NCBI GenBank assembly: GCA_937930555.1
Contig: CALHCH010000001.1
Span: 1 to 54,877 of the forward strand
Length of the DNA: 54,877 nt
Origin: Candidatus Absconditabacterales bacterium
GTDB taxonomy: Bacteria; Patescibacteriota; Gracilibacteria; Absconditabacterales; Absconditicoccaceae
Direction of reading: 5' to 3'
Within the stretch, counting starts at the first letter, position 1. Every line of letters begins with the position of its first letter. The notes beneath the pieces were generated by a model. It was not told where the DNA came from. It made no database searches and saw only the letters and a program-made list of their open reading frames with translations. The position numbers were made by a program, and so were the translations under genes. Shown piece after piece: positions 1,818 through 53,149 of the stretch.

Positions 1818-2846
1818 ATGAAAAAAATATGTCTTGCATTAGTTGCTATGTTTCTGGGACTTACTTGTGTGAGTAGTGTTGTGCATGCTGGGAGATTTCA
1901 GTGAGTATTGGAGGATTCGCTCAGTGGCGGTGAGTGAGAGCTGCCAGGTGGCAATACCCTCCTAGACTACCAAGAGACATCACTCGTGAGTGAGGTATGA
2001 TGAGCAGAAGGTATTAGAGATTTATTGATCACCATAGCAGTGACCATCTTGATACCTGTATTTGTGTTTGCTGGGATTATCATAGCGATATTATGATTTT
2101 ATAAGTTGATGACGTCTGAGGCAGAAGACGAGACATCCAAAGCCTGGAACTATATCATCTATGGGGTCATATGAGTGATGATCATGATCTCAGCCTGATA
2201 CATCACCAACCTCCTGGTGGGTGCAGATGGGAGCGGATCAGCTAGCAGTGTGTTTGATTTTGAGGGACGATCGGAGCTGGATGGACCTGCTCTAGCAGCA
2301 CAGATCTATGAGATGATAGCCTACCCGCTTCTCAAGATATTTTTAAATCTTGCTATGGGGATACTATTTATCATCGTGATGGTCAATGCATTTAAGATGA
2401 TATTTAGTCCTGATGACAATATCGTGAGCAAAGCATGATCTATACTGGTATACTCTATCATATGAGTCCTAGCAATACTGCTCTCCAAAAACATCGTAGA
2501 ACTCGTGTACGGAAATTATGAACAAGTCATCGTCAAACTCAACCCAGGTGAAGAATGAGAATTAGGAGAAGTATGATTGTTGTTTGGTGGATTGGGTGGA
2601 GACTGATGAGTGACGATCAGAGCTAGCGCACTAGAGAGGATCCGATGAGTCATCAATCGAGTCCTGTGATTGGCGACGTTTATAGTGACGGTGATCATCA
2701 TCTATCTAGGATATATGATGCTCATCAAGCCCAACGACGAAGACAGCACCAAAAAAATCAAAAGCTATTTGATCTATATGATTATTGGGATATTTATCAT
2801 AGGGTTTAGTTATCTCCTGAGTAGGATGCTGATTGTGACGTGATAA
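1818..2846 (+). CDS. Secreted multi-span membrane protein of three VirB2/TrbC-like repeat units
   Basis: ATG at 1818 opens a 342-residue protein (TGA = Gly) ending TGA-TAA. The N-terminus is a signal peptide (MKKICLALVAMFLGL...HAG). Three related segments follow at about residues 69-133, 164-235 and 272-342. Each has a hydrophobic helix, a short charged loop (YKLMTSEAEDETSKAW, FKMIFSPDDNIVSKA, YMMLIKPNDEDSTKKI) and a second helix beginning Y-x-IYG/I-IG. Two helices with a short polar loop is the VirB2/TrbC pilin-like plan, here seemingly triplicated in one chain. Being next to the VirB4-like ATPase, it probably forms a channel or pilus-base component. Similarity to VirB2 is by topology and short motifs only; VirB6-like is an alternative. 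Confidence 0.7.
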
Positions 2847-2890
2847 GTTGGATGAATGAGATTAGAGTTGGAGATAAGAATAAGAATCAG

Positions 2891-2929
2891 TATCTTATTT
2901 CTATTTTCTATTTTCTATTTTCTATTTTG
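2891..2929. repeat. 7-bp period tandem repeat (CTATTTT)n before murC
   Basis: About four copies of CTATTTT run up to the probable murC start. Similar 7- to 8-bp period A/T tracts occur in other spacers of the window (near 12,390, 21,890 and 41,370). Confidence 0.8.
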
Positions 2930-4474
2930 AATAATATCGTCCTAGTTTGAGTCTGATGAGCTGGTGTCTCTGCCCTTGCGAGACTGTTTTTGCAGTTGTG
3001 ATGTACGGATATTGTAGGTATAGACAGCGTAGAGTCAGAGATTACGCAAAATCTAAAATCTCAAGGTATTGCGATCACTATCTGAACTGGTATATACGAA
3101 GTCCAGCCAGATGATTTTGTGATATACTCTAGCGCAGCCATTGACTCTATCGAAGTACAAACATCACTCTCCTATATAGGTCAAAATCACAAAAAAGTCT
3201 TCCCTCCACTAAGTTATTTTCAATTTTTGGGAGAGATATCCAAGTATCTCGAGACGATTGCGATCGCTGGGACGCACGGCAAGAGTACCACCACTGCCCT
3301 CACAGCACATACCCTCTCACAGCACTATCCGATGTTTGGGATCGGGATAGTGTGAGCTGGAGTAGCTGATCGATGATGAGACAATGTCAGAGTCAGCACG
3401 ACCCATATATCAGACATCAAAGACATCATCCATCATATCATAGATCCCAAATGACCAAGCATAGAACACCTGATGAAAAAATATCTGTTTGTGATCGAAG
3501 CATGTGAGTACAACTACCAGTTTCTCTCACTAGATGTAGACTACGCTGCCCTGACCAATATAGAACTAGATCACGCTGATGTATACGGTACGTTTGCAAA
3601 TTATTTGGATACCTTCGTACAGTTTTGTAATAAGGTAAAAAAATGAATCTTTAGTTTTGGTGATACGCAGTGACTTGAGACTATACAGGACCATAGTGAT
3701 GCACCGCTACATATGGTACAGCAACAGCATTTTGAATTTGCTCATATGCTATGAGCGCACAATCATCTCAATGCGAGTCTTGCACTAGATGTGTGTAAAC
3801 ACCTCACACAGCAGGCGCAAAAAGACAAACAATCTGAGTTACCCCTTGATAAGGGGGTCGAGCTGGGTGAAGCCAGCGAGGGGGGTTTGAAAACTACTAT
3901 ACAATGATTTACCTCTCTACGAAGAAGATGAGAACTCCTATGACACAATACTCACTGAGTACCAGTCATCACAGACTACGCACATCATCCTACAGAGCTT
4001 GCTAGCATCCTCCAAGCCATATCAGAAAAATATTCTCCCTCTCCTAGCGAAGCGGTTGGGACAAGGTGAATGACGGAGTCAGAGATGGTGCCCTGGGGTG
4101 GAGGGTCGGAGTGAGGGAAAATTCACCTCATCTTCCAGCCTCACCAAGCACGTCGTGTGGTGGAGTTTTGGGATGAGTTTGTGGATACGCTCCAGACAGT
4201 AAATGACCCAATAATATATAACATATATACCGCTAGAGAAAACATAGCAGATCTCGCAGACTACACTATCTCCTCATCGCAGCTCCAGTCTGAGGTCTGA
4301 GGTCTGAGGTCTTTTGATGAGCTAGGAGAGTTGTTTGTAGATCAGTGTAGTGGGACATATATCACCGACTATACACAGATACAACACATCATCTCACAGC
4401 AGACTGAGTGAGTGATACTTGTATGCACAGCAGGAGATTTGGATTGGGAAGTGAGGAAGTTTATTGCAAGCTAA
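2927..4474 (+). CDS. murC: UDP-N-acetylmuramate--L-alanine ligase
   Basis: Cytoplasmic Mur ligase adding L-alanine to UDP-MurNAc with ATP in peptidoglycan synthesis. Frame 2 with TGA = Gly gives 515 residues. Visible are the N-terminal nucleotide motif (VGVGGAG, three of its glycines being TGA), the ATP loop AGTHGKSTTT, a central EACEYNYQF segment and the C-terminal DYAHHPTEL motif. The start is uncertain: TTG at 2927 puts Met directly before NNIVLVGVGGAG as in relatives, whereas ATG at 2852 would translate a CTATTTT tandem tract, so I prefer TTG. Two GC-rich palindromic elements are inserted in frame (about 3842-3886 and 4034-4120), adding non-homologous peptides, and a 7-bp triplet repeat (TGAGGTC x3) lies near 4298. 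The downstream gene is convergent (sufS). Confidence 0.92.
3842..3886. repeat. GC-rich palindromic element inside murC (type A)
   Basis: CCCCTTGATAAGGGGG followed by a G-rich arm. It resembles intergenic copies at 17852-17890 and 24616-24670. It is read in frame and adds a short low-conservation peptide between the MurC substrate domain and RRRGE segment. Confidence 0.7.
4034..4120. repeat. GC-rich palindromic element inside murC (type B)
   Basis: Begins CTCCCTCTCCTAGCGAAGCG and ends in a GGGGTGGAGGG / GAGTGAGGG arm. The first arm matches the element in rsmA at 52781-52830. It is longer than that copy and looks diverged in the middle. The frame is kept. Confidence 0.65.
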
Positions 4475-4563: not shown

Positions 4564-5799
4564 CTAATGACTCCTCAATACCTCAAAAAACCTCTCCACA
4601 TCCCTCATCTCCGTATATGCCCAGAGCGATATCCTACACGTCACTCATAGATCACACTGCTGGTGATAGATATGTGTACAATGCGTCCCTGTCCTAAGCG
4701 CTATACCGGCACGATCCATCTGCTGCTCTAGCTCATGCACAGATCATCTACTAAGGACAAAAGAAAACACCCCCACTCTCCCCTCATCGGTCTGGAGTCA
4801 CAACAACTGTATCACTCCCTCCTGCTCCAAGAGCACAAACTGCTCCAAACAATACTGCATCAACGGTCTTTCCAACTGATCTATGGTATCATATCAGATA
4901 CTATCTATATAGCGTATCGCCTCCGCCAGACTCAGTGCTCATACGATATTGGGCGTGCCTGGCTCGAGACTATCTGGAGCTCATATATAGGTCATCCCAT
5001 CCTGCGTCACACGCTCCACAGCTCCACCTCACACTCTGCCTGGGGTGAGTTTTTTTAGATGTTGTTTTTTTCACCATAGTACACCGATACCTGTCAGCGC
5101 ACCGAGTTTGTGTCCAGTAAAAAAACAAAAATCACATCCCAAATCGGACACATCCACAGCAAAGTGAGCGATAGCCTGACTCGCATCTACCACGATATAT
5201 GGAGACACTCCCCCCTCATAGAGGGGGGCTAGGGGGGAGTCTACATACGTAGAGAGAGTCTTGATCTCCTGCTCCCATATACTCCCCGTGACATTACTAC
5301 ACAGCGAGAGGGCTATGATTTTTGTGTTTGTATCTACAAGTGAAATCACTTCATCAGTATCTAGCACTCCATCTACTCAGATATGTACTCGGCGTAGCTG
5401 GGCACCAGTATGCTCAGCCAGCATCTGTCGTGGGAGGAGATTGGCGTGATGCTCGAGGTCGCTGAGGATGATATTGTGCTCGGGTCCGATCTGTCCTGAT
5501 CTGATCAGAGATCGCACGAGGAGATTGGCACTATCGGTGCTACTTGAGGTCCATACCACCTCCGACTCATCATATGCTCAGACAAACTCTGCTACCGTAC
5601 TCCTAGCTTGCTCGTATAGTGCTTCAGATCTGCGTGATAGATCGTATTTGCCTCTATGGATATTGGCATAGTCAGTGCTGAGATATGACGATACCGCATC
5701 TATGACCACCTGTGGCTTGTGGAGCGTAGACGCACTATCCAGATAGATCATCTCTGGATGTGAGGCGAAGATTGGGAAATCGTTTTTGATTGAATTCAT
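4564..5799 (-). CDS. sufS: Cysteine desulfurase, SufS/Csd type
   Basis: PLP enzyme that removes sulfur from L-cysteine for Fe-S cluster assembly and thio-modification. Three ORF-track pieces (5578-5799, 5377-5559, 5071-5367) and the following TGA-containing stretch join in one frame, 411 residues, stop TAG. Family signs are YLDSASTLHKP at the start, DLEHHANLLP, VVDASQA, the PLP lysine in FFTGHKLGALTG, and the C-terminal RTGTHCTH loop with the expected catalytic Cys. A palindromic element (5207-5240) is inserted in frame, giving SPLAPLYEGG just before the PLP-binding strand. No SufBCD or IscU gene is nearby. It is convergent with murC (89 bp between stops). Confidence 0.92.
5207..5240. repeat. 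GC-rich palindrome inside sufS
   Basis: ACTCCCCCCTCATAGAGGGG with its G-rich complement forms a near-perfect hairpin. It is read in frame as SPLAPLYEGG. Confidence 0.75.
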
Positions 5800-9093: not shown

Positions 9094-9152
9094 ATATGGT
9101 AGATAATAAATCAAAAATAATATCACTCTCGATACGATCACGTAGAAGCACG

Positions 9153-9186
9153 GTCATTGCGAGGAGCGTAGCGAGGTGGCAATCTC
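9153..9186. repeat. GTCATTGCGAG-type repeat, left copy beside the GIY-YIG gene
   Basis: GTCATTGCGAGGAGCGTAGC continuing to GGCAATCTC. It is in inverted orientation to the copy at 9500-9527, and together they bracket the GIY-YIG gene. Confidence 0.8.
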
Positions 9187-9191
9187 GTTTT

Positions 9192-9476
9192 TTACAGCTG
9201 ATCTGCTAGGTCAATCCATTCAGGATTTGCTTCCTCTATCAATCTCACTTTTCTAGCTCTATTTCATTTTTTCAATTGTTTTTCTCTTTGTATAGCATCT
9301 GCTGTATGGTCATATTGTTCGTAGTATACAAGCATATCTAGATTGTATCTACTCGAAAAAGAGTTGTTTGCTTTATCTTTGTGTTCTTGTATTCTTCTCG
9401 TCAAGTTATTTGTGACTCATATATACAAGGTTCAGTTTTTCTTATTACTTAAGATGTATATTCGTCAATTGTTCAT
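9192..9476 (-). CDS. GIY-YIG domain endonuclease-like protein (UPF0213 type)
   Basis: Absent from the ORF track because of TGA codons. With TGA = Gly, ATG at 9476 gives 94 residues ending TAA. The N-terminus RIYILSNKKNGTLYIGVTNN is the classic GIY-YIG signature (GIY form altered to IYIL; YIG intact with TGA for the Gly), followed by LTRRIQEHK and a C-terminal AIQREKQLKKGNRARKVRLI, as in short stand-alone GIY-YIG proteins. These are putative nucleases whose role is unsettled. The gene is framed by inverted GTCATTGCGAG-type repeats, and a partial copy of its 5' end lies at 11,385, suggesting a small mobile unit. Confidence 0.92.
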
Positions 9477-9499
9477 CTTAGGTTGGTTGGTAAATTCAT

Positions 9500-9527
9500 G
9501 AGATTGCCACGCTACGCTCGCAATGAC
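9500..9527. repeat. GTCATTGCGAG-type repeat, right copy beside the GIY-YIG gene
   Basis: GAGATTGCCACGCTACGCTC GCAATGAC, inverted relative to 9153-9186. Nearly identical copies lie at 11422-11449 and 53122-53149, and a diverged one at 17792-17823. Confidence 0.85.
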
Positions 9528-9599
9528 GAATTGCTACCACTCTACGACTCTCTCATCCAAAATCAATAAGAGCAAAAATGATTTTCTTGGAAGTTTAGC

Positions 9600-11337: not shown

Positions 11338-11384
11338 GGTAGTGCATAAATTAAAGATCTTGTTTGTGCATAAGAAGACACACT

Positions 11385-11449
11385 CGTCAATTGTTCATCA
11401 TAGGTTGGTTAGTGATTTTACGAGATTGCCACGCTACGCTCGCAATGAC
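11385..11449 (-). pseudogene. Relic of the GIY-YIG unit: gene 5' end plus GTCATTGCGAG repeat
   Basis: The 65 bp here match the region around 9463-9527 closely: the first codons of the GIY-YIG gene (ATG AAC AAT TGA CGA), its upstream sequence (AGGTTGGTTAGTGATTTT vs AGGTTGGTTGGTAAATTC) and the repeat (11422-11449). The reading frame then diverges and ends quickly, so only a truncated copy remains. Confidence 0.75.
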
Positions 11450-11498
11450 GATTGTTTATCAAATTCTTTTGCATTAAAGCAAACAGCAGTACCTACTA

Positions 11499-52268: not shown

Positions 52269-53099
52269 TTACCTGTTAAGTATCATTCTCATTTCCTCTC
52301 GAGTAAGCTCCTGCACTCTCTTCATCTCCAGCTCATCTGGCAACACAAAACTCTCCAGATCATCTTTTCTCATCTTTCGGATTTTTCTCATCGTCTTCCT
52401 CGTATACTGAGATACGATGTCTAGAAACTCCACCATACGATCAAAATCTATATTCGAACACTCTCCCTCTCCTTTTGGGAGAGGGCCGGGGTGAGGGTTT
52501 TTCTTTTTGCGAAACGAGACGACCGCACTTTGTACTTTGGGTGGTGGATCAAATGCAGTAGCTGAGACCAAGAAATTATATTCTATATCATATCCATAAT
52601 TCAACAGCCATCGGAGATAGGATTTTTGTTTAGTATCGGTTGCTATTTTTTGTGCCACTTCTTTTTGGATCAAAAACACTCCTCCAGGCACATCAGAATC
52701 CACAAAGAATTTTCTAAAAATAGGGCTCGTGATATAGTATGGGAGATTGCCTACTACCAACGTCTCGCTGTATTCCAAACTTTCTCCCTCTCCTAGCGGA
52801 GCGGTTGGGAGAGGGCTGGGGTGAGGGTGGTTTTGCTGCAACACATCTCACCATACGATCTGCAGATCTGGATGAGATACCTCAAAAGGTGTAAGGTATG
52901 ATTCTAGCGTAGTATCTATCTCCATCAATCTCACTGTACGGAAACTATCCACTATCAGTCTAGTCAGCACTCACTGCCCTGGTCCTATCTCTACCAGCTG
53001 ATCACATCACAGCTCCTGGCCCAATCACAAAACAGTATCAGCTATACGAGCCAATACCGTCTGGTCAGACAAAAAATGTTGTCAAAATTTCCTTCACAT
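52269..53099 (-). CDS. rsmA: 16S rRNA dimethyladenosine transferase RsmA (KsgA)
   Basis: Dimethylates two adenosines near the 3' end of 16S rRNA. ATG 53099 to TAA 52269, 276 residues, extending the track ORF upstream through TGA. RKFGQHFLSDQTVLARIADT, SAM motif I VEIGPGQGVLTRL and catalytic NLPYYITSPIFRKFF are present. Two palindromic elements are inserted in frame: PHPSPLPTAPLGEGE just before the NLPYY motif and NPHPGPLPKGEGE near residue 195. Both are read in the same frame and give similar peptides. LRR lipoproteins lie upstream. Confidence 0.95.
52459..52500. repeat. GC-rich palindromic element inside rsmA (second)
   Basis: CTCTCCCTCTCCTTTTGGGA GAGGGCCGGGGTGAGGG. Same family as 52781-52830; encodes NPHPGPLPKGEGE. 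Confidence 0.8.
52781..52830. repeat. GC-rich palindromic element inside rsmA (first)
   Basis: TCTCCCTCTCCTAGCGGAGC GGTTGGGAGAGGGCTGGGGT GAGGG; encodes PHPSPLPTAPLGEGES. Confidence 0.8.
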
Positions 53100-53121
53100 A
53101 ATGCACTATATCTAAACAATC

Positions 53122-53149
53122 GTCATTGCGAGCGAAGCGTGGCAATCTC
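53122..53149. repeat. GTCATTGCGAG-type repeat
   Basis: GTCATTGCGAGCGAAGCGTG GCAATCTC, between rsmA and the LRR gene, close to the copies around the GIY-YIG gene. Confidence 0.85.

Follow-up and report, generated by a model that had tools for sequence, protein, structure and literature searches.

In-frame palindromic insertions in rsmA of an Absconditabacterales bacterium and the possible spread of their repeat family by a DUF559 nuclease

The first palindromes recognized as coding for protein were described from Rickettsia in 2000 (PMC10969869). The Rickettsia palindromic elements (RPEs; Ogata 2000, 2002) are ∼150 bp long, lie in frame in many unrelated conserved genes, are predicted to be translated, and are non-autonomous (PMC10969869). 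REPs are mostly intergenic, with some located in tRNA synthetase and DNA repair genes, and CGTC REPs are said to have no dedicated transposase (PMC3733652). Introns can carry homing endonucleases of the EDxHD family (PMC3943268, PMC6083498).

The repeat family described here, from the genome of a Candidatus Absconditabacterales bacterium, resembles the RPEs in that palindromic repeats stand in frame in unrelated open reading frames, a likeness drawn without sequence alignment to RPEs. It differs from them in the length of the repeats (35 to 83 nt), in their occurrence in both orientations, the reverse one by means of TGA read as glycine, and in the existence of a nuclease-bearing unit with the same ends. 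With the GTAG and CGTC REPs and the REPtrons of RAYTs, the family shares small hairpin repeats, some of them in genes, and a nuclease gene flanked by repeats. In contrast to REPs, nearly all copies in the source genome are intragenic, and in contrast to REPtrons, the nuclease between the repeats is a DUF559 domain and not a Y1 transposase, and genes contain the whole unit in frame. DUF559 is comparable to the EDxHD homing endonucleases as a small nuclease carried within conserved genes, but it comes without intron or intein, within an open frame, and bounded by palindromes.

The window analyzed, the whole stretch of 54,877 nucleotides, contains the rsmA gene for 16S rRNA adenine dimethyltransferase at 52269 to 53099 on the minus strand. 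The open reading frame of 276 amino acids is complete only under translation table 25, in which TGA encodes glycine, and includes six recoded codons. Its identity is supported by Pfam (RrnaAD, 2.1e-31) and by RsmA/KsgA relatives in the PDB, and the GPGQG and NLPYY motifs are undamaged. A preceding sequence-only reading had proposed two palindromic elements in this conserved rRNA methylase, in frame and in the same orientation, and was correct in both the host and the elements. Copy 1 (52784 to 52827, minus strand, 44 nt) is translated as PHPSPLPTAPLGEG; copy 2 (52463 to 52497, minus strand, 35 nt) is translated as PHPGPLPKGEG in the same frame. Both show the architecture CCCTCACCCC-RG-CCCTCTCCC-loop-GGAGAGGGAG, with hairpin folding on either strand. 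CCCTCACCCC with one mismatch allowed has 4 matches in the window compared to 0.8 expected, and an Rfam search of the rsmA region gave no match. Copy 1 ends ∼12 residues ahead of the catalytic NLPYY motif, just before which one element had indeed been placed. According to the alignment, this copy forms the loop immediately ahead of the NLPYY-bearing strand, and copy 2 lies in the linker that joins the methyltransferase domain to the C-terminal helices. These placements depend on the alignment alone, since a single-sequence AlphaFold model reached a pLDDT of 34.5 and is not usable.

The proposal would have fallen if relatives carried the same peptides as ancestral RsmA sequence or if the elements were assembly artifacts, and neither is the case. 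In the RsmA alignment, site 1 is filled only in the source genome and is empty in all relatives aligned. Site 2 is filled in the source genome and in the congener G003, whose copy has a different, partly tandem sequence, and in no other relative aligned. Apart from site 2 of G003, both sites are empty in the congeners G002 and G004 and in the other family members aligned. RsmA of G033 carries another, unrelated-looking insert close to site 1. Because the sites of the relatives are empty, the elements are not ancestral and, as judged from this alignment, are insertions into a conserved gene. The recurrence of the insertions at rsmA site 2 and at site A of the leucyl-tRNA synthetase LeuRS in the separate assembly of G003 argues against an assembly artifact.

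A 20-mer of the element with at most one mismatch matches 11 places in the 1.2-Mb assembly, compared to 0 for a reversed-pattern control, and laxer matching yields a few further copies for a genome total of ∼17. About 16 of these, some forward and some reverse, occupy in-frame positions in conserved genes: two in rsmA, three in leuS, and one each in murC, alaS, pheT, hemW, dnaA, msrAB, dtd, argS, and the genes for an ABC exporter, a DUF58 protein, and a family 2 glycosyltransferase (GT2). In most of these hosts the insert is spanned by a Pfam domain or has domains on either side, with Pfam support on one side only for hemW, the glycosyltransferase, and msrAB. The remaining copy (L007), located 5′ of the conserved domain of nusA, is perhaps not within that gene. 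A pattern match with two mismatches (L012 in G000) was set aside as probably due to chance. The recurrence in frame in many unrelated genes, the hairpins, and the status as insertions relative to other genomes bear out the parallel with RPEs that had been drawn for rsmA.

The frames used by the element read PHPSPLP.GEG, PSPQPSPN..RRGS, and LTPQPPLP and, in reverse, PSPS..GAVGRG.GGG. In murC, dnaA, and leuS, each reverse copy contains an intra-element TGA and is open because this codon is read as glycine; under the standard code, the frame is closed. The palindromes are retained in frame in 16 of 16 in-gene copies (p of ∼2e-8 if chance keeps the frame one time in three), which points to selection for an open frame and hence to translation.

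The murC copy, a long one (4035 to 4117, minus strand), is placed in reverse to the gene and is in frame through the TGA of the element; the host is identified by Pfam. The same gene (2840 to 4474 of the window) contains a palindromic insert from each of two repeat families, the other being a palindrome-like insert at 3841 to 3886 on the plus strand, translated as LPLDKGVELGEASEGG and assigned by eye to a second family. This second family (ACTCCCCCCTAGCCCCCCTCTATGAGGGGGGAGT) is found in frame in the gene for a SufS-like cysteine desulfurase (5207 to 5240, minus strand), where it is translated as SPLAPLYEGGV and spanned by Pfam Aminotran_5. A palindrome similar in type flanks a DUF559 domain in Elp3 of G007.

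The only DUF559 match found in the source genome lies between two inverted copies of the palindrome in leuS. The inverted arms of 28 nt are 86% complementary, and the two halves of LeuRS, the palindrome, DUF559, and the inverted palindrome form a single frame of 1317 codons. The DUF559 domain (PF04480) is complete (6.9e-27; 93.9 bits versus a curated cutoff of 20.6), and its putative catalytic residues D, ExDG, and H are invariant in 12 DUF559 domains. The LeuRS frame (L094, 1463 to 5416; 1317 amino acids) also contains in-frame nucleotidyltransferase-like and α/β-hydrolase domains. No Pfam match to an intein Hint domain was found in 14 DUF559 host frames (leuS and 13 others), and no Rfam match to a catalytic intron RNA was found in nine DUF559 loci; the flanks of the units are also too short for an intron. 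The unit is neither an intron nor an intein; it lies in an open frame, and no splicing device was found. The inserts might still escape translation through ribosome bypass, as in T4 gene 60 and the mitochondrial byps, or be spliced out. Short GC-rich hairpins within coding genes, such as those described here, are reminiscent of bypassed elements. Neither bypass nor splicing would need the open frames that all 16 in-gene copies and the DUF559 units keep, and with neither a Hint domain nor an Rfam intron in these searches, this explanation is very hard to sustain.

DUF559 occurs in 28 of the 49 genomes of the order. Loci from the order and class contain in-frame units in LeuRS (G000, G033, and G064), MnmA (G048, G019, G006, and G021), Elp3 (G041 and G007), Fmt (G017), LepA (G070), PrmC (G019), Tgt (G032), MurC (G061), and RimO or a relative of it (G059 and G033); the host was checked with Pfam for nine frames, and the others were named from sequence. 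Palindromic peptides flank most of the units on both sides, some of them eroded. The unit in LeuRS of G064 shows 83% DNA identity over ∼500 bp with the unit in RimO of G059, and the units in Fmt of G017 and LepA of G070 likewise show 83% DNA identity. In both pairs the host genes are unrelated, and the homology ends at the palindrome ends or some bases beyond, the ends being of the type TTTCCTCA..C and its inverse GGGTGAGGAAA. The LepA sites are empty in six congeners, and Fmt is continuous without a gap in four. Units with 83% identity in unrelated genes, with borders at the palindromes, indicate a mobile unit, and comparison of the DNA thereby shows whole DUF559 units to have moved between unrelated genes. 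In G070, two LepA copies (L144 and L151) on separate contigs share ∼90% of their DNA sequence and each contain a DUF559 unit, one of them with an additional palindrome; they represent two strains or a duplication.

The loops of LeuRS receive several kinds of insert. Site A is empty in many genomes, contains a short palindrome in G000 and G003 and a second-family palindrome in G033, and contains a DUF559 unit in G064 and a Prevotellaceae genome. NUDIX, hydrolase, and other domains are found in these loops as well, and permissiveness of the loops may partly explain why insertion sites are shared. Individual examples are the NUDIX domain of G064 LeuRS and what appear to be a hydrolase and a GxxExxY-like domain in G006 LeuRS. 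Local repeat expansion in fast-evolving permissive loops, without any mobility, would agree with these LeuRS loops and with the resemblance of the insertion sites to loops and linkers. It is contradicted by the DNA sequence shared between genes: copy 1 of rsmA is identical to the left leuS element flanking DUF559 at 42 of 44 bases, copy 2 is identical to the alaS copy at 34 of 35 bases, and units with 83% identity occur in unrelated genes. Such an origin can practically be dismissed.

When 84,980 species genomes were scanned with an alignment of DUF559, 80 loci from many phyla were recovered. Hairpins with a stem of at least 9 occur in 49% of the 220-bp flanks of DUF559, compared to 7% of windows farther out (p = 2e-23). 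Left and right flanks match at 50 of 77 cross-phyla loci (65%), compared to 1.8% of controls (p = 2e-14); within the order, the values are 35% and 3.8%. The CCCCTCTCC-GGAGAGGGG type recurs in many of the cross-phyla palindromes. DUF559 is strongly linked to flanking palindromes across phyla. Under the standard code, 13 of the 77 loci lie in frames open on both sides, with hosts including MmeI-like and type ISP enzymes, HsdR, and LeuRS; a few of the 13 may be repeat sequence that is open by chance. On a tree of 129 DUF559 domains, which is rough and based on few columns, the in-gene state requires 13 to 16 changes, at least 6 of them on well-supported branches. The HsdR-like restriction subunits L193, L214, and L258, from Bacteroidota, Chloroflexota, and an archaeon of the Methanophagales, contain related DUF559 inserts, which group together on the tree, with an identical insertion site in L214 and L258.

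A linkage of this kind could also arise if DUF559 were a site-seeking passenger that homes into existing palindromes, which would then spread by other means such as replication slippage or hairpin recombination. G014 contains free-standing palindromes, six copies of the motif without a DUF559 match, and tandemly duplicated palindromes occur both there and in rsmA of G003. This origin is nevertheless unlikely, though it retains more weight than the other alternatives: the best cases have a complete hairpin on each side of DUF559 rather than split halves, and units including both palindromes have moved whole between unrelated genes.

It is less likely still that the repeat is of the REP type and is moved, like the GTAG REPs, by a Y1 tyrosine transposase (RAYT), with the linkage to DUF559 being coincidental. 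Movement of REPs by RAYTs is established, including some inside genes such as those for tRNA synthetases (PMC3733652), and the source genome contains two weak partial Y1 matches. No palindrome of the family is found near the Y1 match in L094, the one of the two that was examined, and a Y1 transposase is therefore not supported as the partner. The repeat has neither a GTAG nor a CGTC tag at the base of the stem; its ends are CCCTCACCCC and GGAGAGGGAG, with CGT a few bases further on in several copies. DUF559 and not Y1 lies between the inverted copies, with the same linkage across phyla.

The reading preferred here, with a probability of roughly 0.68, is that a DUF559 nuclease spreads a palindromic repeat family of which the rsmA inserts are non-autonomous members that are translated. 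Insertion and in-frame retention are observed, whereas mobilization by DUF559, cutting, copying, and the persistence of the insert in the mature protein are inferred. The short palindrome would insert in frame and be translated as an extra loop of ∼12 to 16 residues, representing the non-autonomous form of a larger palindrome-DUF559-inverted palindrome element that also inserts in frame. A Vsr-like fold occurs in a known family of homing endonucleases, and the Vsr-like DUF559 most likely cuts DNA at or for its palindrome. Repair would then copy the unit into a new site by homing or transposition, with solitary palindromes presumably mobilized in trans. Most insertions would be lost, and those kept by selection would be in permissive loops, with a length divisible by three and an open frame, and translated. 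Reading TGA as glycine would loosen the open-frame filter for the reverse orientation. The insert is predicted to remain in the finished protein. Against a role of DUF559, the domain could be hitchhiking between repeats, and there is no experimental evidence that it moves the repeat. The six motif copies of G014 without a DUF559 match and the many loci in the order without matching flanks also count against it, and a target-site duplication has not been established for the insertions.

The insertions in rsmA are themselves a new case of an already known kind, in-frame palindromes. What is surprising is that they are connected with a nuclease unit that is bounded by palindromes and lies in frame in many phyla, a partner that appears undescribed: no description of DUF559 bounded by palindromes and no match to the peptides of the element were found in the literature, where related work concerned only RPEs and REPs, a search restricted to open-license papers and therefore weak evidence. 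The evidence leaves evenly balanced whether there is a widespread mobile class, present in bacteria and in one or more archaeal genomes, of single-domain DUF559 units bounded by inverted palindromes that home or transpose in frame into conserved genes, persist as translated domains without splicing, and shed short palindromes into housekeeping proteins, with at least some in-frame RPE- or REP-type palindromes as their non-autonomous derivatives. A specific nuclease family between inverted palindromes, in frames and in many phyla, provides a testable candidate for the spread of such repeats and suggests a role for DUF559, a large domain of unknown function. It would account for the extra domains and odd short peptides present in restriction enzymes, aminoacyl-tRNA synthetases, and tRNA-modification enzymes. 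The case also shows how a recoded stop codon increases the number of frames available to such DNA.

The window contains a further arrangement of nuclease and repeats. A GIY-YIG nuclease gene (9192 to 9476, minus strand), within 9152 to 9528, is flanked by inverted CGTC-type REPs of the sequence CGTCATTGCGAG..GGCAATC at 9152 (plus strand) and near 9503 to 9528 (minus strand). A truncated second copy near 11380 to 11470 consists of the REP, the same upstream sequence, and the start of the gene. Among 25 GIY-YIG loci in the order, the motif is present on both sides in 3, and the flanks match in 8, compared to 1 of 25 controls. Since CGTC REPs reportedly have no transposase of their own (PMC3733652), GIY-YIG may represent a second nuclease-palindrome pair. 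A solitary CGTC-type REP (CGTCATTGCGAGCGAAGCGTGGCAATC) lies at 53121 to 53147, between rsmA and the adjoining leucine-rich-repeat gene.
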